Shown piece after piece: positions 9,272 to 43,816 of a stretch of 44,589 bases of DNA (position 1 is the first letter of the stretch; every line of letters starts with the position of its first letter). Made by a program: the position numbers and the translations under genes. This stretch comes from Oscillospiraceae bacterium. Lineage in GTDB: Bacteria; Bacillota; Clostridia; Oscillospirales; Acutalibacteraceae. The stretch is from positions 1 through 44,589 of the forward strand of contig SVPD01000019.1 in the NCBI GenBank assembly GCA_015066045.1, in the 5' to 3' direction. The notes under the pieces are model-generated. The model was not told the DNA's origin, made no database searches, and worked only from the letters and a program-made list of their open reading frames with translations.

Positions 9272-9288
9272 TTCCTTAATAAGAAAAA

Positions 9289-9385
9289 ACAGAGTAGGCC
9301 TTAATGCGTTCAGTGCTCTGAAGACGGGGAGTTGCTTCAGGGACGAAAGGATTTTTCTGCGATATTCAGGCCGCATCCCGCTGTG
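9289..9385 (+). promoter_or_regulatory. Tetrahydrofolate (THF) riboswitch aptamer
   Basis: The leader carries the conserved blocks of the THF riboswitch in order: AGAGTAGG (9291-9298), GCGTTCAGTG (9306-9315), a P3 hairpin CTGAAG...CTTCAG enclosing GGGGAGTTG, then GACGAAAGG, GCGAT, and CCGCATCCCGCTGT (9371-9384). P1 pairs ACAG (9289-9292) with CTGT (9381-9384), and P2 pairs GGCCT with AGGCC. It lies between a promoter and a folate transporter gene, the classic position for this RNA class. It should reduce folT expression when reduced folates are plentiful. Confidence 0.9.
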
Positions 9386-29798: not shown

Positions 29799-31109
29799 AT
29801 GAGTAAAATTTTAGTAGCAGGTGCAGGCCACGGCGGCCTCGTAGCCGCTATACATCTGGCTAAAGAGGGCTATGATGTGACGGTTATCGAAAAAGAAAAT
29901 CCGGACACCATCGGTCACGATTGGCACGACTGGCTCAGCTACGATGCCTTCGACCGCTCGGGAATAGACCGTCCCGAGGAGGGGACCTTTTTCGCAGGCA
30001 TACCCCAGGGCTTCCGTAACCCCAAGGCAACGGTTATGCTCCGTGTTCCGGTAGGTGAAAACTCCATTTGTATGGACAGAAAGCTCCTGATTGCTTATCT
30101 TATCTCACAGTGTGAAAAGGCAGGAGTAAAGTTTATCTTTAACACGGAAATTCTCTCTCCCGTAGCGGAGGGGGCAAAAGTAACAGGTCTTAATCTCAGA
30201 GACGGTGAAAGAATATATGCTCTTTACGGAGATCTTGTCATCGATGCGGCCGGTATGTATTCGCCTGTTCGCAGAGGTCTGCCGAAGCTTTGCGGTATAG
30301 AGAAGGAGCTGGAGAGCGCAGGAGTTTTCCACGTTTACAGAGCATATTTTAAAAATCTTACGGGCGAAAAGACAGATCCGCCCTATCTTATAAATCTCTT
30401 TAACCGTAATATTCCGGGTATAGGATGGACGGTTACGGATGAAGAATATGTAGACATCCTTATCGGTAAATTCGGTTCGGCAGGTCCGCTTACGGCAGAC
30501 GAGGTAAATTCCTCTCTTGACGCATTCAGAGCGGAGTTTCCGTTCATCGGTCAGGAAATACTCAGAGGCGGCGTTTTCATCGATCTGCCCATAAAGCGTA
30601 TGCTTCCCATGCTTGTGTGTGACGGCTATGCGGCCGTCGGTGACAGTGCGGGTATGACCGTTCCTTTGAACGGAAGCGGTATCGTTCTGAGCATGAATGC
30701 AGGCAAGATTTTGGCTGAAACCGTAAAAAAAGCCGTAGGCACCTACGATAAAAAAGCGCTCTGGCCCTATCAGTACGAGTATTTTCATCACTATGCAAAG
30801 GATCTTATCCTTATCGATAAGCTGAAGGATTTTTTCCGTTATGTAAAGGGGGAGCATGTGGATTATCTTTTAGAGAAGGAAATCCTCACACCCGAGCTTA
30901 TTGCTGTAGCTGACGGTGCGCCTGTGTCTCTTTCCCCGAAGCAGATAAGACATATCATATCTGTTTGTCCGCCCTTGCTGAAGCTTATTCCTCCTCTGGT
31001 GAAAAATTTCCGTACTCTTCCCTTTATGGATTCGGTCTGCCGTAAAATGCCCGAAATCTACAGTGAAGAGGCAGTAAGCAGCTGGGCAGAGAAGTATAAG
31101 GCTCTTTAA
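29799..31109 (+). CDS. FAD-dependent oxidoreductase (geranylgeranyl-reductase/monooxygenase-like)
   Basis: The 436-residue protein starts with an FAD-binding Rossmann fold, GAGHGGLVAAIHLAKEGYDVTVIEK. It has a second FAD motif GDSAGMTVPLNGSGI near residue 285, typical of the GR2/PHBH-like flavoprotein family that includes geranylgeranyl reductases and halogenase/hydroxylase relatives. It likely oxidises or reduces a small hydrophobic molecule in the cytoplasm. AAAGGAG lies 12 bases after the MFS stop. Pairing with a transporter suggests a dedicated substrate. Precise reaction unknown. Confidence 0.82.
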   Translation: MSKILVAGAGHGGLVAAIHLAKEGYDVTVIEKENPDTIGHDWHDWLSYDAFDRSGIDRPEEGTFFAGIPQGFRNPKATVMLRVPVGENSICMDRKLLIAYLISQCEKAGVKFIFNTEILSPVAEGAKVTGLNLRDGERIYALYGDLVIDAAGMYSPVRRGLPKLCGIEKELESAGVFHVYRAYFKNLTGEKTDPPYLINLFNRNIPGIGWTVTDEEYVDILIGKFGSAGPLTADEVNSSLDAFRAEFPFIGQEILRGGVFIDLPIKRMLPMLVCDGYAAVGDSAGMTVPLNGSGIVLSMNAGKILAETVKKAVGTYDKKALWPYQYEYFHHYAKDLILIDKLKDFFRYVKGEHVDYLLEKEILTPELIAVADGAPVSLSPKQIRHIISVCPPLLKLIPPLVKNFRTLPFMDSVCRKMPEIYSEEAVSSWAEKYKAL

Positions 31110-31215: not shown

Positions 31216-31308
31216 GGAGAGTTGTCCGAGCTGGTCGAAGGAGCACGATTGGAAATCGTGTAAGTCGCTAAAACGGCTTCGAGGGTTCGAATCCCTTGCT
31301 CTCCGCCA
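31216..31308 (+). tRNA. tRNA-Ser(GGA)
   Basis: The acceptor stem GGAGAGT pairs with GCTCTCC, the D-arm starts TCCGAGCTGGTCGAAGG, the anticodon stem CGATT-GGA-AATCG places anticodon GGA at 31251-31253, a long type II variable arm follows, the T-arm is GAGGGTTCGAATCCC, and CCA is encoded at 31306-31308. The gene looks complete. Its 3' end is part of a 22-bp direct repeat. Confidence 0.96.
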
Positions 31309-32031: not shown

Positions 32032-33273
32032 GTGACAGATATGGAAAGTATTAAAAAGTTTTTTTGTCGTAATATGACATTTTTTGCTATTTTCTTATTT
32101 TTATCAGTATATGGCATAGGTTCTATTTTTATTTTAGATACTTGGACTATGCCCAGCTCAACTTATGTTTTCCACTTAGTTGATTTTTCTATGGGTTTTT
32201 GTTCTCGTTTTTTGCCCGGTGCTATTTATAATTTTCTTTTTGATAACACCAGTATTCACGCTGTATCTGTTTATAGCTTCGTTATGTATTTGTTTTTCCT
32301 TGCTTTAGTTGCCTTTTTAAGTCAGAAGTTAATAAATAAAGCAGATAAAGAAATTAAATCCTCCCTTATGATTACTTTGCTTTTCTTTTTTACAGGTCCC
32401 ACTATTTTTTCTATGCTTAATTTCGTAAGAGGATCATTGGACCACTATTGGATTTATTTTGCTGCTCTATCAGTTTTATTCCTTTCAAACAAGTATTGCT
32501 ACGGCTTAATTGCTGTTTTTTCTCTGCTTTGCGTAATGGTCAATGTAGGTGCGATGGTTACTTATGTGCCTTTTATTGTACTTTTGATGATGTATAAAAC
32601 AACAACTATAAGCAATAAAAAAGAAAAAAATTCTCTTTGGTTTATTATAATGCTTACAATATCTTTGTGTTTGTTGTTAACTGTATATTTTATGATTTTT
32701 GAAAGGTCCAACCTTGTTTACGATTTAGAAGATTTCAGTGCTATTCTTAAAAGTCGAGGATATGTAGAAGATAAATCTTATTACTTTTCAACCATATTAT
32801 ATTCTGAAGATTATTATGATGAAACCGAAGTAGCGGTTTTGAATTCGCTTAATGCTACTTACCCCGGTTCAATAGCACGACTTCTTTTCCGTATATGGTT
32901 GACTTTAAAATCCCTTAATTTCGAAGAGGCTTTTTATCCATTGCTTTTGATGTTTCCTGCTTTGGTAATTATTTTTTCATTTATATCAAAAGTTTTCAAA
33001 AGTAATAAAAACAAAATCAGAAAATTCACATTGTTTTGTATGTGTGGGATGTTTTTTATAACTATATTTTCAGGTCTGTTTCTTTCAACTGATACATGCA
33101 GATTCTTAGGACATTCATATACAATACTTTTCACTTGTGCATTATATATCTCTCAATATGAAAAAGAAAATACAGCTGATCTTTATAAAACTATTTCAAA
33201 AAAAGTCCCGTTATGTTTTATATTGATTTACTGTTTGTGTTATTGCTTTGTTTTGTTTGATCCGGTAGATTGA
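32032..33273 (+). CDS. Multi-pass membrane protein, function unknown
   Basis: The 413-residue protein has roughly nine or ten hydrophobic segments with few long loops. A conserved-looking patch SMGFCSRFLPGAIYNFLF follows the first segment, RGSLDHYWIY lies before the fourth, and a polar, acidic loop at about 225-285 (EDFSAILKSRG ... YSEDYYDETEV) probably faces outside. Size and layout recall glycan polymerases or GT-C type lipid-linked sugar transferases, but I see no diagnostic motif. I chose GTG at 32032, eight bases after GAAGGG; ATG at 32041 is the alternative. Strongly AT-rich codons differ from the genes left of 31 kb. Confidence 0.8.
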   Translation: MTDMESIKKFFCRNMTFFAIFLFLSVYGIGSIFILDTWTMPSSTYVFHLVDFSMGFCSRFLPGAIYNFLFDNTSIHAVSVYSFVMYLFFLALVAFLSQKLINKADKEIKSSLMITLLFFFTGPTIFSMLNFVRGSLDHYWIYFAALSVLFLSNKYCYGLIAVFSLLCVMVNVGAMVTYVPFIVLLMMYKTTTISNKKEKNSLWFIIMLTISLCLLLTVYFMIFERSNLVYDLEDFSAILKSRGYVEDKSYYFSTILYSEDYYDETEVAVLNSLNATYPGSIARLLFRIWLTLKSLNFEEAFYPLLLMFPALVIIFSFISKVFKSNKNKIRKFTLFCMCGMFFITIFSGLFLSTDTCRFLGHSYTILFTCALYISQYEKENTADLYKTISKKVPLCFILIYCLCYCFVLFDPVD

Positions 33274-33305
33274 TTTTAAAGTGGAGTTAGAAATGAGTTG
33301 TATTT

Positions 33306-34037
33306 ATGACAAATAAAAAAACTAATTTAATTATTATTTGCTATCTTTTTATCGCTTGGACCTTTCCTCTTTTAAAAAACGGCGAGTGGGAAAAATTTGC
33401 TTTTATAATTATTTACGGCGCATTCATATCAGTATTTAGTTTTGTAAAAGCAAAACATTTCCATTTCGTTTCGTGTATATGCATTGCTCTTATAGTTTGT
33501 TATTTGGTATATAATAACACTATGTTGTTTTTATTCATAAACCCATTGTTTATAACTGCTGAGTATATAAGTGTCTTTAAAGGCAGAAAAAGCGAAACAA
33601 GTACATACTTTGGTGCGAATATAAGTGCAACTATAGGGCTTTTTTGTTTGGTATATTTATATTTTAAAAATATAGGCGAAGAACTATCTTTTATTCACCT
33701 CTCATCTTTTCCGATTGTGTTCGCTATTTTCTTGTTTTTATTGTTGGTTGTTGCGATGGTATGTCTTAAAACGAATAAGGGAACAGTTGAACAATACCGT
33801 ATGTCAGCAGCGAGATTTCAACATATTAAATATCTTCATATTATGAACATCGTTTGTTATCTGGAAAGTATAATCTTTTTCTGTCTGTCTCACAGAGGTT
33901 TACAGGAATTTTATGAAAGAGCTTATTTCTTTCCGTGGCTTATATATATCGTAGTTATGTTAAGCGTAAAAGATCCTTTTGTTGACATTATGATAAAAAA
34001 ATCAATATCTGTCATTAACCGAAAGAGTATAAAATAA
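33306..34037 (+). CDS. Membrane protein, function unknown
   Basis: The 243-residue protein has about seven hydrophobic segments and a basic tail (IKKSISVINRKSIK). I recognise no family. It follows the previous gene by 32 bases and belongs to the same transcript. The nearest ribosome-binding-like site (TGGAG, 33282-33286) is set for another ATG at 33293 that opens a seven-codon frame (MSCIYDK) ending at 33316. That frame overlaps this start, so translation may be coupled through it. A role in glycan or lipid export is inferred only from the neighbours. Confidence 0.75.
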   Translation: MTNKKTNLIIICYLFIAWTFPLLKNGEWEKFAFIIIYGAFISVFSFVKAKHFHFVSCICIALIVCYLVYNNTMLFLFINPLFITAEYISVFKGRKSETSTYFGANISATIGLFCLVYLYFKNIGEELSFIHLSSFPIVFAIFLFLLLVVAMVCLKTNKGTVEQYRMSAARFQHIKYLHIMNIVCYLESIIFFCLSHRGLQEFYERAYFFPWLIYIVVMLSVKDPFVDIMIKKSISVINRKSIK

Positions 34038-34104
34038 GAAAACGAAAACAATCTATACATTCTATATAGTAATGCATTTAAAATTATATGTAAACTATAT
34101 TGAA

Positions 34105-34200
34105 CAAAAAAAGAAACTATACTTTTTTAAAGTCAACTATTCTTATGGCAAATCAGAGCAAATGTCTTGTATAGCAGGCGGTCTTGTTGTCTGCTGTATA
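34105..34200 (+). pseudogene. Remnant of a radical SAM gene N-terminus (fourth tandem copy)
   Basis: The translation reads KLYFFKVNYSYGK ... AGGLV, matching the start of the radical SAM protein encoded at 35428 (KLYFFQVNYPYGK ... AGQLV). The DNA is also visibly similar. After about 30 residues the similarity fades; a stretch near 34215-34255 (FYYGPFIKCYDI) faintly recalls the C-terminal part of the same family. It lacks B12 and radical SAM domains, so it is a decayed copy. It stays in frame with the sugar kinase but is probably not translated with it. Confidence 0.7.
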
Positions 34201-34272
34201 TATTGCTATGCTTTTTATTATGGGCCGTTTATAAAATGCTATGATATAAGAGTAAAAAAGGAGGTTGAAGAA

Positions 34273-35259
34273 ATGCTTATATCGAGAACGCCGTTCAGAA
34301 TATCTTTTTTTGGCGGCGGAACGGATTATTATGATTATTTTTCCGAATATGGCGGTTGTGTTTTATCGACAACCATAGATAAGTATTGCTATACAACTAT
34401 CCGCAATCTGCCTCCTTTTTTTGAATATAAAAACCAGTTTACATACTCGAAAATAGAGCGTTTTGATAATCCTGAAGAGCTGCAACATCCTCTTGTGCGT
34501 GCTGCTTTAAAGTATATTTCGACTGACAGAATTCAGATTGCATATGATGCGGATCTGCCTGCATGCTCCGGCATCGGATCAAGCTCTGCGTTTTCCGTGG
34601 GACTTTTGCAAGGACTCCATGCTTTGAGAGGGGAATTCCCGGATAAATTATCTATTGCCAAGGAAGCAATATATCTTGAAAGAGAAATGTGCGGGGAAGC
34701 CGGAGGTGTTCAGGATCAGATTGCTGCTGCCGTAGGAGGATTTAACCGCCTTTCTTTTGACAGTGACGGATTTAAAGTCTGTCCTGTTCAAATATCAGAT
34801 GTGACTAAAAGACGGTTGGAAGATAATTTACTGCTTATATTTACGGGCTTTACTCGGTTTTCAGGTGAAATTGCAGCTGCTCAGCAGCGTAACATTCGAT
34901 CAACAATTTCTCAGCTTAATGAAATGAAATCTTTAGTATATGATGCTGAGAGATTGCTTTCCGAGGGCAGACTGACAGATTTCGGACGTATGCTTGATCA
35001 TACATGGAAGCTGAAAAAAAACCTTTCAAGCAGCATTTCTAATTCTGAAATAGATGATATTTATGAAAGAGCAAAAGAAAACGGAGCTTTGGGCGGCAAG
35101 CTTCTGGGCGCAGGTGGTGGCGGTTTTATGCTTCTGTATGTACCTGAGGAACAACAGACAAGATTTAAAAAATCTGTTGAAGGATTGAAATACATTCCTT
35201 TTAAATTTGAAAATACTGGAACAAAGATAATTTATAATGACGGAAAAGTAAATGCATAA
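34273..35259 (+). CDS. GHMP-family sugar kinase, HddA-like
   Basis: The 328-residue protein has the three GHMP kinase motifs: RTPFRISFFGGGTDYYDYF at the start, the phosphate loop PACSGIGSSSAFS near residue 95, and KLLGAGGGGFMLLY near 280. The RxPxRIxxxGGGTD start is typical of D-glycero-alpha-D-manno-heptose-7-phosphate kinase (HddA) and fucose/heptose-type kinases, which put phosphate on a sugar before nucleotide activation. I start at ATG 34273, after AGGAGG. A longer open frame from 34072 includes the remnant of a different gene. No heptose isomerase, phosphatase or nucleotidyltransferase is nearby, so the sugar may not be heptose. It likely supplies the sugar for the cluster. Confidence 0.87.
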   Translation: MLISRTPFRISFFGGGTDYYDYFSEYGGCVLSTTIDKYCYTTIRNLPPFFEYKNQFTYSKIERFDNPEELQHPLVRAALKYISTDRIQIAYDADLPACSGIGSSSAFSVGLLQGLHALRGEFPDKLSIAKEAIYLEREMCGEAGGVQDQIAAAVGGFNRLSFDSDGFKVCPVQISDVTKRRLEDNLLLIFTGFTRFSGEIAAAQQRNIRSTISQLNEMKSLVYDAERLLSEGRLTDFGRMLDHTWKLKKNLSSSISNSEIDDIYERAKENGALGGKLLGAGGGGFMLLYVPEEQQTRFKKSVEGLKYIPFKFENTGTKIIYNDGKVNA

Positions 35260-35353
35260 TTTAAAATAGAACCAGATACAAGTTTATATTTTGCTATATT
35301 GCATTTGCAAAAGAGAACATATTTTACCCGGAAACGAAATTATATGTTTTTTG

Positions 35354-35382
35354 TTGACTTGAAAAACTAATGATGTTATAAT
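35354..35382 (+). promoter_or_regulatory. Promoter of the radical SAM operon
   Basis: TTGACT (35354-35359), 17-base spacer, TATAAT (35377-35382), followed by a leader of about 38 bases with AAAGGA. No cobalamin riboswitch is visible in this leader. Confidence 0.8.
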
Positions 35383-35427
35383 AATTCGTTGGATTGTAAT
35401 TTTTGATAGTTGAAAGGATGTGCTGAA

Positions 35428-37344
35428 ATGAAAAGGAAATTATATTTTTTTCAGGTGAATTATCCTTATGGAAAAGCTGCACATCTTCCCTATACTGCCG
35501 GTCAGCTTGTTGCTTATGCATTCGATTGTAAAGATATATCAGAAAATTATGAATTGGCAGACATATTTTTTCTAAGAGAAAGAATAGATGATGCATTTTC
35601 TAAGGTAAAAGAACCTTTTATAGTCGCATTTTCCACATATATATGGAATTGCAACTATAACAAGACTCTTGCAAAACTGATAAAGGAAAAATATCCTGAG
35701 TGTATCATTGTTTTTGGCGGACATCATGTTGCTCCGGGTGGTGCTATGCTCGCAGAGTGCCCTTATATAGATTATCTGCTTCACGGCGAAGGTGAAATAA
35801 TATTCAGGCGTCTTATGCGTGCACTCATCGGACTGGAAAAAGCTCAGGAGATACCCGGAATTTCAATGAGAACTGATGCAGGCATCATAACTAATGCTGA
35901 AATAATTTCGGAAGAATGCAATTTTCCTTCTCCGTATCTTAACGGTTACTTTGATAAAATAATCAGAGAAAACCCCGAAACAGAGTTTATGGGGCTTATA
36001 GAAACCTCAAGAGGCTGTCCTAATTCCTGTGCTTATTGTGACTGGAGCAATATGAAATCAAAAATTCGTATGTTTCCCATTGAACGTATTTACGGTGAAA
36101 TCGAATGGGTGATGAATAACAGAATTCATGTTCTCGGTTCTGCCGATTCTAACTTTGGAATGTTCCCACGTGATATAGAGATAACGGAGAGACTTGTAGA
36201 AGCCAAGAAAAAAACAGGTTATCCTATCAGATTTCAGACATCCTATGCCAAAAATAGCAGTAAAAGAGTTTTTGATATAGGTATGAAGCTGGAAGAAAGT
36301 GATATGAACAGAGGAGTAACGCTTTCATTTCAGTCTATGAGTAAGGAAGTTCTGAAAAATATCGGAAGAGCTAATATCAGTATTGATTATTATTCGGAAT
36401 TGATGAAGCTTTACGGAGAAGCAGGAGTAGCAACATATACTGAGCTCATATTAGGGTTACCCGGCGAAACAGTTGAAAGTCTTGTTGACGGAATAGACGA
36501 ATTACTAAATTTGGGACAGCATAATTCTATATATATTCATAACTGTGAATGGCTGCCCTGCTCTATAATGGGGCAGAAAGATTATGTTGATCGCTATAAA
36601 ATAAAAACCTCGCATATTCCTCTTAATCAGCCTCATCGCGAATATAGTCAAGAGGATGATATTCCTGAATGGTCCAGTGTTGTTACATCGACTTATTCAA
36701 TGGATACACAGGCGTGGAAGAAAATGAATTTATTTTCTTATGTAGTTCAGGCTTTTCATCATATGGGAATTCTGCAGTTTTTTGCATTGTACCTTTATAA
36801 TGAGGGCATCTGCTCATATAAAAAGTTCTATACGGATTTATTGGAGTATTTTCTTGAGGATTGTCAGTCTGTTGCCGGCAAAACCTTTAGGAAGATAACT
36901 GATTATTTGGATATGGTGCTCAGCGAAAAGGGAACTCTCAGCTGTACGGATGAAAGATTCGGTAGGGTACAGTGGCCTTTTGAGGAATATGCTTATCTTT
37001 GCATAATGTATGAGGCTGAGACCTTTTATGAAGAAATTACAGTTTTTTTAAAGAACTTCAATATAGATGCGCAAGTATTTTCAGAGTTGATGGCTTTTCA
37101 GAAAAACATAATGAAGAAGCCTTTTGAAAACAAAGTTGAATTTACAACCCACTATAATTTTCTTGAATATTTTTTTGGCATTCTCAGTGGCACCAAGCCT
37201 CTTTTAAAAAAGCAGGAAGAAGTAATTAGTTTTGAAACAAAAAAGTTTGAAAGTTGGGGAGATTTTGCCAGAATAATAGCTTGGTACGGCAGGAAAAATG
37301 GCGCTACTACTTATTTGAAGGATGTTTATTTTGAAGAGAGGTGA
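35428..37344 (+). CDS. Cobalamin-binding-type radical SAM enzyme, paralog 1
   Basis: The 638-residue protein has an N-terminal Rossmann-like cobalamin-binding domain (about 1-150; IIVFGGHHVAPGG, YLLHGEGE), a radical SAM barrel (about 185-420) and a C-terminal domain of about 220 residues. The 4Fe-4S cysteines are Cys197, Cys201 and Cys204 in RGCPNSCAYC; ELILGLPGE is a later barrel motif. The family is class B (B12-dependent) radical SAM, whose members methylate unactivated carbon or phosphorus or rearrange rings. The C-terminal domain has W-x(5)-[FY] ... QAFHHMGILQFFALY and ends with SWGDFARIIAWYG, both shared with the next two genes. First gene of a tight operon. Start chosen for AAAGGA at 35413. 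Reaction unknown. Confidence 0.88.
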   Translation: MKRKLYFFQVNYPYGKAAHLPYTAGQLVAYAFDCKDISENYELADIFFLRERIDDAFSKVKEPFIVAFSTYIWNCNYNKTLAKLIKEKYPECIIVFGGHHVAPGGAMLAECPYIDYLLHGEGEIIFRRLMRALIGLEKAQEIPGISMRTDAGIITNAEIISEECNFPSPYLNGYFDKIIRENPETEFMGLIETSRGCPNSCAYCDWSNMKSKIRMFPIERIYGEIEWVMNNRIHVLGSADSNFGMFPRDIEITERLVEAKKKTGYPIRFQTSYAKNSSKRVFDIGMKLEESDMNRGVTLSFQSMSKEVLKNIGRANISIDYYSELMKLYGEAGVATYTELILGLPGETVESLVDGIDELLNLGQHNSIYIHNCEWLPCSIMGQKDYVDRYKIKTSHIPLNQPHREYSQEDDIPEWSSVVTSTYSMDTQAWKKMNLFSYVVQAFHHMGILQFFALYLYNEGICSYKKFYTDLLEYFLEDCQSVAGKTFRKITDYLDMVLSEKGTLSCTDERFGRVQWPFEEYAYLCIMYEAETFYEEITVFLKNFNIDAQVFSELMAFQKNIMKKPFENKVEFTTHYNFLEYFFGILSGTKPLLKKQEEVISFETKKFESWGDFARIIAWYGRKNGATTYLKDVYFEER

Positions 37345-37351
37345 CTGCCAA

Positions 37352-39277
37352 ATGGATAAGAAAAATATATATTTCGTTCAGGTTGATGTTTCGGCCTCTT
37401 CAGGAACTCAGAATGCATATCTGCCTTATACGGCGGGAATTCTGGTTGCATCTGCATTTCAGAGTAAAACGGTAAAGGATAATTGCACTTTCAAGGAGTT
37501 TGTTTTCTTGCGTGAGGATATTGAAAAGGTGGTGTCCCGCCTTGATAATCCGGCATTCATAGGCTTTTCCTGTTATTGCTGGAGCACGGAATATAATAAA
37601 ACCCTGGCGGCGGCTGTCAAAAAGAAATTTCCGGAATGCCTTATTGTATTCGGAGGTCATAATGTGCCCGATGATTTCGATTTGCTTTCCGAAAACAGTT
37701 TCATTGATGTTCTGTGTCACGGTGAAGGCGAAGATACAATCAGAGATTTGCTTGAAGCATATATTCTAAATAAGCCTTTCAATGAAGTCAATAATATTTC
37801 ATACAGAAAAAAAGACGGTACTTTTTGCAGAACTAAAACGGTTTTGCAGACTACTCTTGATTATCCGTCTCCTTATTTGGAGGGCTGGTTTGATAATATA
37901 GTTTCATCTTATCCGGATATTACCTTTAACGCAATTCTTGAGACAAGTCGCGGGTGTCCTAATCAGTGTGCTTATTGCGACTGGGGGTTACTTAAGTCGA
38001 AAACCAGACTTTTCCCCTTTGACAGAATCAAAAAAGAAATACGCTGGATGTGTGAACACAAGATAGCTTTTGTATGGGGTGCTGATGCGAACTTCGGACT
38101 GTTTGACCGCGACCTTGAAATTGCCGATGAATTGGTAAAGGCGAAAAAAGAAACCGGTTATCCTGAAAGAATGCGAATGAATTATGCGAAAAACAATTTT
38201 AAAAATGTTTTTTCAATAGTTAAAAAATTTAAAGAGTGTGAATTTGACAGAGTCGGAGCAACATTGTCATTTCAGAGCATGTCACCGGTAGCGCTCAAGA
38301 ATATAGGAAGAACTAATTCTTCTTTGGATTTTTACAAGGAGCTTTTGATTGCCTATAACCGAGAGAACATGAAAACATATTCTGAGTTGATATTAGGCCT
38401 TCCGGGAGAAACCTATAAAAGCTTTACAGAGGGTGTCGGCAAACTTTTTGAGATAGGTCAGCACTTTGTTTTTGAGGCTTATAACTGTATATTGCTTCCT
38501 AATTCTGTAATGGGACAGAAAGAGTATATAAAGAAACACGGGATCAAAACAGTACATGTTGAGATTGTAAGACCTCATTTTAATAATGATTCGTTTAGTG
38601 TTCCGGAATATAACAGAATTATAATCGAAACGAATACAATGAGCCGTGAAATGTGGGTTCGTTCATCAGCTTTCATTTATATGGTTAAAGCTCTTCACGG
38701 CAATGGCTTCATAAGAGCCTTTGCAATTTATACGCATTATGTAAAGGGCATTCCTTATGAAGAATTTTACGATGGGATATTGAATTATTTTGAAGAAAAT
38801 CCGGAGCTTTTTATTTCTAAGCTTTATTTTGATGTTAAACATAAGGCTGACGAGCTTTCTCTGGGACATGAAAACAAGAGATTCCTTTTTGAACCGACGG
38901 GAGAAGTGGTCTGGGAGGATCATGAATATGTTGTATTGAATTCTCTTGCTAATTTTGACAGGTTTTATGACGAGGTTATACCGTACCTGAAGCGATACGG
39001 TATCGAAGAAGATATTTTTGAAGATCTGCTCAGTTATCAGAAGGCAATTATGCGCAAGCCTTGTGAGGAAACCGTTAAAATATCATTGAAATATGATATT
39101 CACAGATATATTACAGACATTTATGTCAATAAAGTTCATAATCTTGAAGAAAGAAGAAATACTCTTGTTCTGAGAGATAGTAAAGTACACGACAACTGGC
39201 CTGATTTTGCAAAATATGTTATATGGTATGAAAGAGTCGGCTGGTCATCATATAAGGATGATATATCAGAAGAATAA
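37352..39277 (+). CDS. Cobalamin-binding-type radical SAM enzyme, paralog 2
   Basis: The 641-residue protein is a paralog of its upstream neighbour with the same three-part layout. The N-terminal domain has NIYFVQVDV, AYLPYTAG and LIVFGGHNVPDD. The cluster cysteines are Cys202, Cys206 and Cys209 in RGCPNQCAYC, followed by SELILGLPGETY. The C-terminal domain contains TNTMSREMWVRSSAF and ends NWPDFAKYVIWYER. AGAGGTGA overlaps the preceding stop codon, with the ATG seven bases after the stop, so translation is coupled. Clear sequence divergence from copies 1 and 3 suggests a different substrate position or step rather than simple dosage. Confidence 0.88.
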   Translation: MDKKNIYFVQVDVSASSGTQNAYLPYTAGILVASAFQSKTVKDNCTFKEFVFLREDIEKVVSRLDNPAFIGFSCYCWSTEYNKTLAAAVKKKFPECLIVFGGHNVPDDFDLLSENSFIDVLCHGEGEDTIRDLLEAYILNKPFNEVNNISYRKKDGTFCRTKTVLQTTLDYPSPYLEGWFDNIVSSYPDITFNAILETSRGCPNQCAYCDWGLLKSKTRLFPFDRIKKEIRWMCEHKIAFVWGADANFGLFDRDLEIADELVKAKKETGYPERMRMNYAKNNFKNVFSIVKKFKECEFDRVGATLSFQSMSPVALKNIGRTNSSLDFYKELLIAYNRENMKTYSELILGLPGETYKSFTEGVGKLFEIGQHFVFEAYNCILLPNSVMGQKEYIKKHGIKTVHVEIVRPHFNNDSFSVPEYNRIIIETNTMSREMWVRSSAFIYMVKALHGNGFIRAFAIYTHYVKGIPYEEFYDGILNYFEENPELFISKLYFDVKHKADELSLGHENKRFLFEPTGEVVWEDHEYVVLNSLANFDRFYDEVIPYLKRYGIEEDIFEDLLSYQKAIMRKPCEETVKISLKYDIHRYITDIYVNKVHNLEERRNTLVLRDSKVHDNWPDFAKYVIWYERVGWSSYKDDISEE

Positions 39278-39289
39278 GAGGGTGAAGCG

Positions 39290-41206
39290 ATGAAGAATAT
39301 TTATTTTGTGCAGATTGCATTATCATATTCATCTCCTTGCTTTCTGCCGTATTCAATAGGTTGTATTGCAGCATACGTAAAAAATGATCCTGAAGTTGCA
39401 TCACATTATGAAATAAAAGATGTCATCGGTATGCGTGAAAAAATTGAAGATGTTTTAAAACGTTTTGATAATCCGTATATGGTTGCCTTCACTAATTTCG
39501 TCTGGAATCTTGAATATAACAAGAAACTTGCTATTGAGCTTAAAAGACTTTATCCAGATGTCAAAATAGTTTTTGGCGGACACAGTGTGCCTAATAATGC
39601 CTCGTTTCTTGATAAATATGATTTCATCGATTATCTTATGCACAATGAGGGTGAAGAAACTACTGCAATGTTTTTGAAAGCATTGGAGGCCGGTTCAGAT
39701 CTTGCTGATGTTCCTAATCTTTCTTACAGAAGTGAAAATGGTAATATAACCACTAAAGCATATTATGCGACAGATTTTTCATCATATCCGTCTCCTTATA
39801 CGGAAGGCATTTTTGATAACCTTTTAAAGGAATATCCGGATGTTGAATTTCATGCAACACTTGAAACAAACAGGGGCTGCCCTTATAGCTGCTCTTATTG
39901 TGAGTGGTGCTTCACGAAAAAGATAAGACAGTTTCCTATGGAAAAAATAAAATCTGAAATTGAGTGGATAGCAAAGAATAAAATAAAGTATTGTTATTGC
40001 GCAGATGCCAACTTCGGTATTCTTAAAAGAGATGTAGAGATAGCCAAATATGTAGTAGAGCAAAACAAAAAATACGGTTATCCCAATGTTTTTAAGCCCT
40101 GTTATGCAAAGGATAGTGACGATACTGTTTTTGAAGCAGGATATATTTTAAATAAAAATCATATTGACAAGGGTGTAACGCTGGCTTATCAGACATTGGA
40201 TAAAACAGCATTGGAAAATATCGGCAGAAAAAATCTCACGCTTGAGCATTTTTCAGGCTTATATTCTCGTTATAGCGAGGCCGGAATTCCGACCTATACA
40301 GAGCTCATTATCGGCTTGCCGGGTGAAACCTACGAAAGCTTTTGCAAGGGTATGTGTGATCTGCTTGAATCCGGACAGAGTAATTCTATGACTGTTTATG
40401 AGTGTCAGGTTTATGATAATGCCAGAATGGGTGACCCCGAGTACCGCAAAAAGCATGGCATAAAGCTTTCAAGAATTCCTTCATTCGGAATTCATTATAA
40501 TCCTGATTTTAACGGTGTTCAGGAATATATGGATGTTATTACTGAGACTGCGACTATGTCAAGGGATGAGTGGGTAAGAGCATTTATGTTTTCTGTTGTT
40601 TTGCAGACCTTTCACCATTTAGGCTTTACGAGATTTTTTGCTGTGTATCTTAATAAAGAAAAAGGAATTTCTTATTATGATTTTTACAGCAGTTTGTTTA
40701 ATTACATTTACAATGAATGTGTCGGCTATCTTCATGAATTTTTTATTGATTTATATAACCGTAAATCTGATGCCGAAACAGCAGACTGGACATATCAGAG
40801 AGATGAATTCGGAAAAGTAGGTTGGTATTTCGAAGAAGGTGCTTTCCTTGAAATGGTATATCACAGTGATGAGTTCTGGAAAACTATAAAGCCGTTTCTT
40901 GAAAACTTCGACATAGAAGAATCTCTTTTTAATGATTTATACAAATATCAGAAAAGTCTTATCAGAACTTTGGATTCCGATGAAATCTGTATAACCTCAA
41001 ACTATAATTTTTATCCGTATTTTCAGGCGATTGAAGACAGAGGCTATATTGAACTCAGAAAGGTTGAAAGTGTCTTAAAGATAAAAACACATAAAACTGT
41101 TAGGTCTTGGGCAGAGTATGCGCGTGAGTTTGTTTGGTTTGGAAAACGTTACAGTGCAACATTGCTTATTAATTACAGAGAACATATAGAATATACTGAA
41201 AAATAA
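39290..41206 (+). CDS. Cobalamin-binding-type radical SAM enzyme, paralog 3
   Basis: The 638-residue protein is the third tandem paralog. The N-terminus has NIYFVQIALSYSS and FLPYSIG; the cobalamin domain has KIVFGGHSVPNN; the iron-sulphur cysteines are Cys197, Cys201 and Cys204 in RGCPYSCSYC; ELIIGLPGETYESF follows. The C-terminal domain has TATMSRDEWVRAFMF, QTFHHLGFTRFFAVYL and the end motif SWAEYAREFVWFGK. GAGGGTGA precedes the ATG, 12 bases after paralog 2. Extra cysteine in CEWC next to the cluster motif is unique to this copy. Confidence 0.88.
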   Translation: MKNIYFVQIALSYSSPCFLPYSIGCIAAYVKNDPEVASHYEIKDVIGMREKIEDVLKRFDNPYMVAFTNFVWNLEYNKKLAIELKRLYPDVKIVFGGHSVPNNASFLDKYDFIDYLMHNEGEETTAMFLKALEAGSDLADVPNLSYRSENGNITTKAYYATDFSSYPSPYTEGIFDNLLKEYPDVEFHATLETNRGCPYSCSYCEWCFTKKIRQFPMEKIKSEIEWIAKNKIKYCYCADANFGILKRDVEIAKYVVEQNKKYGYPNVFKPCYAKDSDDTVFEAGYILNKNHIDKGVTLAYQTLDKTALENIGRKNLTLEHFSGLYSRYSEAGIPTYTELIIGLPGETYESFCKGMCDLLESGQSNSMTVYECQVYDNARMGDPEYRKKHGIKLSRIPSFGIHYNPDFNGVQEYMDVITETATMSRDEWVRAFMFSVVLQTFHHLGFTRFFAVYLNKEKGISYYDFYSSLFNYIYNECVGYLHEFFIDLYNRKSDAETADWTYQRDEFGKVGWYFEEGAFLEMVYHSDEFWKTIKPFLENFDIEESLFNDLYKYQKSLIRTLDSDEICITSNYNFYPYFQAIEDRGYIELRKVESVLKIKTHKTVRSWAEYAREFVWFGKRYSATLLINYREHIEYTEK

Positions 41207-41244
41207 ACGCAATATGTGTTTTTCAGCAAGATACAGGTGAAAAA

Positions 41245-41979
41245 ATGGGTGAGTTTAAAAATCTCAGTATAATGATGGGAGCTGTTACTGAAACGGAAAC
41301 CTTAAGGGAAACCGTATATAAACTTCTTGATGTGTGTGATGCAGAAGATCTTAAGGAAATCATTATCAGTTATGCTGACAGAACAACTCCGGAAACACAT
41401 GCGGTTATAAACGAACTTCTGAATACAAAAACAGATGTTTCGATTGTTGCATTTAAACAGACAAGACCGTTTATGGGCTGCATTAAAGATATGATTGATT
41501 TTGCCTCCGGAAGTCACTGCATTTTAGTTGCCTCGGATATGGCTTTAGATTTAGAGCCTGTGGCAGAGCTTATAAAAAAGGCAAAAGCAGACCCGGAAAC
41601 AATCCATTCTTTATCACGATGGAAAAAAGGCTGTAGATTTCACGGGTACGGAAAAGTAAGATATATCATCAATTTTCTGGCACAGAAGTTTATTGCCGTG
41701 CTTTACATGACAAAAATGACTGATTTTACAATACCGGTTCAGATAGCTCCGTCCGAGCTGTATAAATCAATCAGGTTTGAAGAAACAGGTTTTCCTCTTT
41801 TACTTGAAATGGTTTTAAAACCGTTGAGATTAGGTTACAAATTCACTGAGATTCCTACCGATTGTTATTCGAGAAAAGAGGGGAAAACCAGCAACTCTGC
41901 CAAAGAGACCTTTTCATATCTCAGAGTAGCTTTACACATAAGATTTATGGATAAAAAAAATATATTGCTTTCAGAATAG
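41245..41979 (+). CDS. GT2-like (DPM1-type) glycosyltransferase-fold protein
   Basis: The 244-residue soluble protein follows the pattern of dolichyl/polyprenyl-phosphate sugar synthases: EIIISYADRTTPETH where VDDGS normally lies, ILVASDMALDLEP where the DxD lies, and a late LRLGYKFTEIPTDCYSR where these enzymes have the LRxGYxIxEVP...R block. The DxD position is S-D-M and the first acidic patch is altered, so the donor or metal use may differ, or activity may be lost. No membrane helix is seen. AGGTGA lies before the ATG. Its place between radical SAM genes suggests that it transfers the modified sugar to a lipid or polymer. Confidence 0.75.
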   Translation: MGEFKNLSIMMGAVTETETLRETVYKLLDVCDAEDLKEIIISYADRTTPETHAVINELLNTKTDVSIVAFKQTRPFMGCIKDMIDFASGSHCILVASDMALDLEPVAELIKKAKADPETIHSLSRWKKGCRFHGYGKVRYIINFLAQKFIAVLYMTKMTDFTIPVQIAPSELYKSIRFEETGFPLLLEMVLKPLRLGYKFTEIPTDCYSRKEGKTSNSAKETFSYLRVALHIRFMDKKNILLSE

Positions 41980-41989
41980 GAGTAAGAAT

Positions 41990-43816
41990 ATGAAAACTCT
42001 TTTTATAATTCCTCCACAATGGTATCCTATGAATGCCTATCTTTCTGCAGCTCAACTGGTTGGTCAGTTACAGGCGAAAGGTTTTGATGCTAAAACAAGG
42101 GACCTTAATATTGAATTTTTCAACGATATTCTGAAAAAAGAGAATGTTATCAGTGCCGTGCAAAAAGCAGAAGTATTTTATAAAGAATTTCGTTGCGAAT
42201 TTTTAAGCGAGGGGTACTGCGAGGAAAAGTTCTCAGGTTATTCACGTGAGTTGAAAACAAAAATTCTCCGTTATATTGCATATGAGGAGTTTTTGGAAAG
42301 TGGAATTAATGCCACAGAGGTAGCTGATAAGCTCGCAGATGCAATAGATGTTACCAAAAATAAAGAAAGATTTTATGATCCTGAGCAGCTTTTTGAGGCA
42401 AAGGAAGTTTTGAAGGATGCTCTCAGAATTATTTCTCTGCCTTATATGCCGAGCAAAATAATGCTTGAAAATTTCATTGCCAATCCTGTTTATTCTTATG
42501 ATTATGCCGATACGAAGCTTCAGGTGAGTAATCCGGATTTGAATATGTTTGTTGAGTATTTTGATAAGAAAATCAAAGCTGAAGATTTTAATGAATATTC
42601 AATCATTGGCATAAGCATTTTCGATTTAAGTCAGATTATACCCGGACTTACCTTAGCAAAATATCTTAAGGAAAGAACAGGAGCGCATATTACTCTCGGC
42701 GGAAACTATATATATAAAATAAGAGGTGCAATTAAGAATCTTCCTGAGTTTTTTGATATTTTTTGTGATTCTGTGCAGCTTGGCGACGGCGAGATTGCTG
42801 CAGTGAAGCTGGTGGAGCTTTTAAAAGACGATCTTCCTTTAGAGGGTGCTTATTCTTTGATGTATAAAGATTCTGACGGAACAATCAGAGAAACAGAAAC
42901 TGCACCGCTTCTTGATATGGATGCTCTTGCTCCTCCTTGTTTTGACGGCTATGATTTCGATTTATATTTTTCGGCAGATAAGGTTATTCCCGTGCAGCTT
43001 TCGAAAAGCTGCTATTGGGCTAAATGCACTTTCTGCGATTTCTATACGGGCCAACAGTGTTTTGATATAAAATCTGTTAAATCAGCTGTTGATGAAATTC
43101 AATATCTGGTAGAAAAATACGGTTTTGAACACTTCATTTTTGTTGATGAGGCGGTGCCGCCTAAATACTATAATCAATTAGCGACAGAAATAATCAAGCG
43201 TGGTATTAAGATTTACTTCTATTCCTTTGCGCGTATGGAAAGAGGCTTCACAAAAGAGGTTTTGCAGAATTTATATAATGCAGGCGCACGCTTCTTCTGT
43301 TGGGGATATGAGGCAGAGTCTGAACGTGTGATGAAGTTGCTGAATAAGGGTATAGATTGCAGCTATCGTAAAGAGTTGCTTGAAAACGCAAAAGAAGTAG
43401 GACTGTGGAATCATTGCACATTTCTTTTGGGATATCCGGGTGAATTGCCGGAAGAAACACAGGCAACAAAAGATGTTATCTGTAACAGAAATCTCGTTGA
43501 CAGTTGTACTCCTTCTAATTTTGCTCTAAAGAAAAATGCTATTATGATCGAAGAGGTTGATAAGGCAGGTCTTAACGATATAAAAGATAACGGCGATTTT
43601 CATATTTCGTGCAACTATATGTTGAACGGGAAAGAAACACGAAATATAAAAAAAGAGCGTATGGATTTTCAACTGGAATTTTTAAAGAAAACAGCTGACT
43701 CTCTTTGGTCGATTGAATTTACGGACACTGACCATATTTTGCTTTACACTTCAAAATACGGTGCAGAGTGGGTGCGTAATTATCGCCTGAAATATAAGAA
43801 GCATAACTTCGGTTAA
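41990..43816 (+). CDS. Divergent B12-binding/radical SAM protein with CX4CX2C motif
   Basis: The 608-residue protein opens with TLFIIPPQWYPMNAYLSAAQL, typical of B12-binding radical SAM enzymes. A long helical insertion follows (about 45-170). The cobalamin-like domain continues with IIGISIFDLSQIIPGLTLAKYL, ITLGGNYI and LGDGEIAAVKLVELL. The radical SAM domain has Cys341, Cys346 and Cys349 in SKSCYWAKCTFC, a CX4CX2C spacing instead of CX3CX2C. Later motifs include FIFVDEAVPP, FCWGYEAESERV and FLLGYPGELPEETQ. It is not close to the three tandem paralogs. It is last in the operon, ten bases after the GT2-like gene, with TAGGAG as ribosome binding site. Reaction unknown. Confidence 0.83.
   Translation: MKTLFIIPPQWYPMNAYLSAAQLVGQLQAKGFDAKTRDLNIEFFNDILKKENVISAVQKAEVFYKEFRCEFLSEGYCEEKFSGYSRELKTKILRYIAYEEFLESGINATEVADKLADAIDVTKNKERFYDPEQLFEAKEVLKDALRIISLPYMPSKIMLENFIANPVYSYDYADTKLQVSNPDLNMFVEYFDKKIKAEDFNEYSIIGISIFDLSQIIPGLTLAKYLKERTGAHITLGGNYIYKIRGAIKNLPEFFDIFCDSVQLGDGEIAAVKLVELLKDDLPLEGAYSLMYKDSDGTIRETETAPLLDMDALAPPCFDGYDFDLYFSADKVIPVQLSKSCYWAKCTFCDFYTGQQCFDIKSVKSAVDEIQYLVEKYGFEHFIFVDEAVPPKYYNQLATEIIKRGIKIYFYSFARMERGFTKEVLQNLYNAGARFFCWGYEAESERVMKLLNKGIDCSYRKELLENAKEVGLWNHCTFLLGYPGELPEETQATKDVICNRNLVDSCTPSNFALKKNAIMIEEVDKAGLNDIKDNGDFHISCNYMLNGKETRNIKKERMDFQLEFLKKTADSLWSIEFTDTDHILLYTSKYGAEWVRNYRLKYKKHNFG

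Follow-up and report, generated by a model that had tools for sequence, protein, structure and literature searches.

An array of cobalamin-dependent radical SAM enzymes and a predicted DPM1-like glycosyltransferase mark a candidate glycosylation locus in an Oscillospiraceae bacterium

The window analysed here is a stretch of 44,589 nucleotides (contig SVPD01000019.1 of assembly GCA_015066045.1, Oscillospiraceae bacterium), and our subject is the block at positions 32032-43816, a candidate glycosylation locus with an array of cobalamin-dependent radical S-adenosylmethionine (SAM) enzymes. Eight open reading frames (ORFs), all on the plus strand, lie 3' of a tRNA-Ser(gga) gene, and the G+C content of the block is 35.3% versus 46.5% for the first 31 kb of the window. 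They encode two membrane proteins (MP1 and MP2), a sugar kinase (KIN), three related radical SAM enzymes (RSa, RSb and RSc; together with their relatives, RS), a family 2 glycosyltransferase-like protein (GT2) and a further radical SAM protein (RSd). The last five genes are tightly packed, with gaps of -23, 12, 38 and 10 bp between consecutive listed ORFs from RSa to RSd. The arrangement described in an earlier note on this DNA, eight genes of one orientation in an AT-rich block behind a tRNA with the last five in one tight operon, is thus confirmed.

Judged by their domains and motifs, RSa, RSb and RSc are cobalamin radical SAM enzymes, and their nearest relatives of solved structure are the C-methyltransferases TokK and CysS. 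All three carry the Pfam Radical_SAM and B12-binding domains, the latter scoring above the cut-off in RSa and RSb and just under it in RSc (30.0 vs 32.1). The best NCBIfam match of each is KedN5 (NF033712), itself a natural-product enzyme, at 234.4, 240.3 and 222.4 bits for RSa, RSb and RSc, all below the cut-off of 700. A profile of 33 RS rows searched against solved structures retrieved TokK at 2.4e-144 and CysS at 6.7e-82; the three cysteines of the CxxxCxxC motif (C212, C216 and C219) are unchanged in 33/33 rows, and so is RSb Trp87, which aligns with TokK Trp76 in an alignment spanning RSb residues 31-581 of 651. According to the accessible part of PMC12846815, Trp76 of TokK occupies the lower axial face of cobalamin, and TokK and CysS are iterative methylases of natural-product synthesis. 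A recent tandem origin of RSa, RSb and RSc was ruled out, as each groups with counterparts from other genomes in a separate clade. The window genome carries two further relatives of the RS class, on contigs C65 and C48.

The earlier note counted four B12-dependent radical SAM enzymes, which holds for these three. RSd has no match to the Pfam B12-binding domain and carries a CX4CX2C motif, not the usual CX3CX2C iron-sulfur motif; it is a radical SAM protein of a different kind. CX4CX2C occurs in all 12 distinct RSd relatives longer than 570 amino acids (RSd itself, L009, L067, L069 and others; 13 rows, one gene appearing twice), and CX3CX2C in 21 of the 22 shorter relatives; the remaining one, with CX4CX2C, is truncated because its stretch ends within the gene. 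Against TIGR03975, a family of radical SAM proteins in the maturation of ribosomally synthesised and post-translationally modified peptides (RiPPs), RSd scores 109.6 bits, below the cut-off of 281.85, and its structure model was of unusably low quality (predicted local distance difference test, pLDDT, 45.7).

GT2 is predicted to be a DPM1/ArnC-like glycosyltransferase of the polyprenyl-phosphate type. It matches the Pfam GT2 domain at 26.5 (cut-off 23.3), and a GT2 profile search of solved structures returned dolichol-phosphate-mannose synthase and ArnC, with a match to 5mlz at 2.3e-14. MP1 and MP2 have eight transmembrane-like segments each. Structural alignment points to MP1 as possibly a glycosyltransferase of GT-C fold: the 23 best VIA-align rows for its low-confidence model are chains that we take to be of this fold, while profile searches of the PDB with MP1 gave no match. 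A polytopic gene of 200-380 amino acids lies 3' of 17 of the 33 distinct MP1 genes observed. MP2 has no significant Pfam match and no family was found for it; none of 15 MP2-like proteins matches the GtrA family, and a role as flippase or accessory protein is a guess. At locus L133 (G115:C102), six MP1-type genes are clustered, and they are accompanied by small membrane proteins and by an F10-family relative of GT2.

The RS array and GT2 occur jointly. RS matches above 400 bits were found in six of 33 genus mates (G006, G007, G015, G023, G024 and G033), and the gene order RSa-RSb-RSc-GT2 is identical in the window and in loci L009, L010 and L011. A family sample of 150 genomes, the window's own included, was scored with strong matches set at more than 500 bits for RS and more than 100 bits for GT2: RS is present in 14 genomes and GT2 in 13, all within those 14. 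The RS genome without a strong GT2 match (G068) is 82% complete and has its two RS genes at a contig end (from base 2). In 12 of the 13 genomes with GT2, no more than 140 bp separate it from an RS gene. The counts disregard weaker matches, of at most 44 bits for GT2 in other genomes and of 144-146 bits for RS in two further genomes; at E 1e-3 the GT2 query matches 73/150 genomes, like generic GT2 proteins. In a class sample of 341 genomes, strong RS and GT2 matches occur in the same two (G000, the window genome, and G501), with distant RS matches of 140-174 bits in 34 others and GT2 matches of 58-74 bits in six others. RS copy numbers are lower bounds, as no more than eight (family) or three (class) candidates per genome were scored. 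MP1 relatives at E<=1e-15, an arbitrary threshold in a score range with no clear gap, occur in 11/150 genomes, ten of these among the 14 with RS. Fisher's exact values for co-occurrence with RS are 8e-18 for GT2, 1e-9 for the kinase, 1e-9 for the GmhB-HddC fusion treated below and 9e-12 for MP1, and they overstate independence, given the kinship among the genomes and the use of RS loci in building part of the queries. Rare co-occurrence of the genes, which would have refuted the earlier note, was not what we observed: RS and GT2 recur together near-perfectly, and the kinase and MP1 accompany RS far above chance. The core unit is the RS array with GT2, not the kinase, and this pair may serve as a simple genomic marker for such loci. 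The locus L118/L119 (G157:C83) is very large: it has seven or more TokK-like genes, of which six are consecutive, and also contains further radical SAM genes, relatives of MP1 and GT2 genes.

Orthologues of the five operon genes in L009 are 73-83% identical to them, at a nonsynonymous divergence (dN) of 0.12-0.21. Synonymous divergence (dS) from L009 is 2.0 for one gene and not computable, which we read as saturated, for four; from L010 it is 2.99 or not computable for three genes. Because dN is low while dS against L009 is 2.0 or not computable, the comparison points to purifying selection on all five genes, and the low dN, with dS high or non-computable against both L009 and L010, rules out the cluster as inactive debris.

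The earlier note had the radical enzymes centred on the kinase, and this part did not stand. The six best protein matches of the ORF stretch 5' of the kinase are all RSa orthologues, and part of that ORF is, by this similarity, a decayed copy of the RSa 5' end. Related operons (L009, L010 and L011) have no kinase in the stretches examined, so it is not needed in cis; together with the decayed copy they rule out the kinase as an ancestral operon member. In G006, G015 and G033 the kinase adjoins an RmlD-like gene in a locus that also has an RS gene, and in the window genome a cupin gene on C65 occupies the kinase's usual place beside the RmlD-like gene. We read this gene order as a late move of the kinase into the window operon that ties the window and C65 loci together.

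The assignment of KIN as HddA-like was upheld: HddA (NF049969) is the top NCBIfam match of this GHMP kinase, the solved structures closest to it are those of a putative sugar kinase (4usk, 4usm) and of two heptose-phosphate kinases (3k85, 4n3o), and it is the sole kinase match at E<=1e-15 in the window genome. The enzymes leading to GDP-D-glycero-D-manno-heptose act in the order GmhA, HddA, GmhB, HddC. Relatives of all four are present in the window genome by homology, with GmhB and HddC fused and the pathway spread over two contigs. Contig C65 holds, besides the GmhB-HddC fusion, genes for an epimerase, an RmlD-like reductase and the cupin, one RS gene and relatives of MP1 and MP2; a relative of GmhA is found some 21 kb away from this RS gene, and a further RS gene is on C48. 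A stretch of about 15 kb in G015 unites the genes for the kinase, GmhB-HddC, GmhA, the RmlD-like protein, the cupin and the epimerase with four RS genes and GT2, and the GmhB part of the fusion orthologue there scores 152.8 bits, above the TIGR00213 cut-off of 149.6. Across the family sample the HddA-like kinase exceeds 290 bits in 11 genomes (three more at 65-71 bits). Precisely these 11 have the fusion at more than 240 bits, and in four others its first half alone is matched, at 141-170 bits; RS is present in nine of the 11. Because kinase and fusion share these genomes and GmhA is present in the window genome, the kinase probably feeds a GDP-heptose-type pathway.

The sugar genes beside the RS arrays come in two kinds. 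A fucokinase/GDP-fucose pyrophosphorylase protein replaces HddA in some RS loci (L073 and L130, by family search), and L115 and L121 were assigned to the fucose type by clustering with these. Ten loci were labelled heptose-type (nine by the kinase, and L075, without a kinase, by fusion, epimerase and reductase) and four fucose-type. Among 83 RS rows, two duplicates having been dropped beforehand, 38 lie in labelled loci and were used and 45 were unused. The nearest labelled RS from another genome shares the label in 38/38 cases, a result reached by one of 1001 label permutations, the true one. G128 holds both module types, and its RS genes group by locus rather than by genome. The pattern fits RS enzymes that are specific for the sugar.

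The remaining features are collected in Table 1. The kinase probably starts at its tabulated ATG, which has a strong ribosome-binding site, AAAGGAGG, upstream, and the probable starts of RSa and RSb lie downstream of the listed ORF starts. Promoter-like sites are about equally common in the block and in shuffled sequence (55 vs 49.5). A search of the window, L074, L075 and L140 gave no cobalamin riboswitch that reached the gathering threshold. A tetrahydrofolate riboswitch scores 84 bits at window positions 9288-9385. The contig-end segment 43821-44589 has no other copy among the sequences compared. Another tRNA-Ser(gga), at L067:4901-4992, precedes the RS genes of the G007 cluster, the first of them by about 4.6 kb; the downstream side of this tRNA is a possible insertion hot spot for RS clusters, with the window and L067 as the two cases. 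Just 5' of the window tRNA, at 29799-31109, is a protein of the geranylgeranyl-reductase superfamily (134 bits to NF041080, cut-off 580), a relative of which adjoins the kinase in G033 (L076:4479-5807).

Table 1. Position of the genes and other features of the block within the window
Feature	Position	Strand	Remark
tRNA-Ser(gga)	31216..31308	+	5' of AT-rich block
MP1, polytopic membrane protein, possibly GT-C-fold glycosyltransferase	32032..33273	+	
MP2, small polytopic membrane protein, MP1 partner	33306..34037	+	
RSa 5'-end remnant (by similarity), 5' of kinase	34105..34215	+	45 nt at 80% identity to RSa
KIN, HddA-like GHMP sugar kinase	34273..35259	+	probable start
Promoter-like site TTGACT-17-TATAAT, 5' of RSa	35354..35382	+	11/12 positions match
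RSa, predicted cobalamin-dependent radical SAM enzyme, TokK/CysS-like	35428..37344	+	probable start; listed ORF start 35410
RSb, predicted cobalamin-dependent radical SAM enzyme, TokK/CysS-like	37352..39277	+	probable start; listed ORF start 37322
RSc, predicted cobalamin-dependent radical SAM enzyme, TokK/CysS-like	39290..41206	+	
GT2, predicted DPM1/ArnC-like glycosyltransferase, near-constant RS-array companion	41245..41979	+	
RSd, predicted second kind of radical SAM protein, CX4CX2C motif	41990..43816	+	

Taken together, we propose, with a probability of about one half, that the cluster C-methylates a GDP- or polyprenyl-linked heptose-type sugar and attaches it outside the cytoplasm. The block would be one arm of a pathway scattered over the genome, by which a C-methylated sugar is both made and attached. 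GmhA from C65, the window kinase and the C65 fusion would convert sedoheptulose 7-phosphate to GDP-D-glycero-D-manno-heptose or a close analogue, which the epimerase, the RmlD-like reductase and the cupin of C65 may change further. RSa, RSb and RSc, with their relatives on C65 and C48, would use methylcobalamin and a 5'-deoxyadenosyl radical to methylate unactivated sugar carbons, at the stage of either the GDP-sugar or the polyprenyl-phosphate sugar, and RSd may add a further radical step. The DPM1-like GT2 would load the sugar onto polyprenyl phosphate, MP2 may assist its crossing of the membrane, and MP1, as a GT-C enzyme, would transfer it to an extracytoplasmic glycan or protein. What we observed are the sequence families, the co-occurrence and order of the genes, the conservation of cofactor residues and the low dN; the substrate, the number and position of methyl groups, the order of steps, the acceptor and the extracytoplasmic or surface location are inferred. 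The interpretation of the earlier note is supported in part, by the recurrence, the HddA-like kinase and the GT-C-like, if low-confidence, MP1 model, and it loses its kinase-centred operon.

Several observations weigh against this proposal. KIN scores 150.3 bits, below the HddA cut-off of 600, and the HddC and GmhA matches in G015 also fall under curated cut-offs, because of which the sugar may be an analogue of GDP-D-glycero-D-manno-heptose. The DxD motif of GT2 is not intact, the second aspartate (D98) alone being invariant. The MP1 model has a pLDDT of 58.5, and a Foldseek search with it returned nothing significant. GT2 of G118 is on another contig, in a 20 kb stretch without an RS gene; two of the 11 kinase genomes (G091 and G121) lack RS, and five of the 14 RS genomes lack a strong kinase match. 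The agreement between RS clade and sugar type could also reflect co-inheritance of whole loci.

The best surviving alternative, although we think it unlikely, is a small-molecule pathway, in which a secreted heptose- or fucose-bearing natural product is repeatedly alkylated by TokK/CysS-like enzymes, as in carbapenem and cystobactamid synthesis. The closest solved enzymes are of this kind (PMC12846815, accessible part), and the spread is patchy (6/33 genus mates, 14/150 family members) and the G+C content low. However, no polyketide synthase, nonribosomal peptide synthetase or precursor peptide is found among the annotated proteins, many neighbours being unannotated, the gaps within the operon leave no room for a precursor gene, and the DPM1-like GT2 and GT-C-like protein point to polyprenyl-phosphate chemistry. 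Somewhat less probable again is a lipid pathway, with the polyprenyl carrier or some other membrane lipid as the substrate that the radical enzymes methylate and that the sugar genes merely cap. A CrtI-like oxidoreductase and a flavin/2Fe-2S reductase lie among the RS genes in three genomes (L069, L109 and L127), and the geranylgeranyl-reductase-superfamily genes near the window block and beside the G033 kinase would agree with it; yet the CrtI-like pair was not seen in the other RS loci examined, and a common lipid substrate would not require RS clades to split by sugar kinase type. That GT2 and the RS array work together while the kinase and membrane proteins merely landed alongside is improbable: the decayed RSa copy before the kinase, the kinase-free related operons and the RS genomes without a strong kinase match agree with it, but the kinase lies less than 2 kb from an RS gene in five of eight other genomes having both, and MP1 is found in 10/14 RS genomes.

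A wider form of the sugar C-methylation proposal is more tentative than the proposal itself, though we favour it over each of these alternatives. It would make the locus part of an undescribed glycosylation system, present in Oscillospiraceae of the gut and in at least one genome from a further family of the class. TokK-like arrays would there install branched alkyl groups (ethyl, isopropyl or tert-butyl-like) on sugars derived from GDP-heptose or GDP-fucose, and these sugars would be loaded on polyprenyl phosphate and attached to extracytoplasmic glycans or proteins as a lipophilic, B12-dependent sugar coat. If true, the supply of vitamin B12 in the gut would be linked to bacterial glycan chemistry, nature would offer a large collection of diverged radical C-methylases that probably act on sugars, and sugars of a kind rarely looked for would be predicted. 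The open-access literature, judged by titles and abstract openings, yielded no characterised pathway for the paralogues, such a pathway being the other result that would have refuted the earlier note, and no work that connects heptose or the glycosylation of surfaces with cobalamin radical methylases.

The locus shares features with several known systems. TokK, CysS and KedN5 have in common with RSa, RSb and RSc the cobalamin-binding and radical SAM domains, the CxxxCxxC motif and the axial tryptophan, but they are natural-product enzymes, whereas the window RS genes are several diverged tandem paralogues beside glycosylation genes, and their 222-240 bits are far below the KedN5 cut-off. Because several parts miss curated cut-offs, profile scores do not place RSa, RSb and RSc as KedN5, KIN as HddA or RSd as a RiPP enzyme. 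The three-component transmembrane glycosylation of Gram-positive bacteria likewise combines a polyprenyl-phosphate-type GT2, a small polytopic protein and a GT-C-like protein; the differences are that none of the 15 MP2-like proteins matches GtrA/GtcA and that the window adds radical methylases. The Pgf protein modification of Streptococcus mutans (PgfS, PgfM1, PgfE and PgfM2, as named in the abstract of PMC5856776) also pairs a GT2 with membrane proteins, and a PgfS-like GT2 (F10) stands beside MP1-type genes in related loci, but the window GT2 belongs to another, shorter family, and the Pgf operon as named there has no radical enzyme. Each annotated part of the locus belongs to a known superfamily, and what we rate as new is the addition of radical C-methylation to transmembrane glycosylation.

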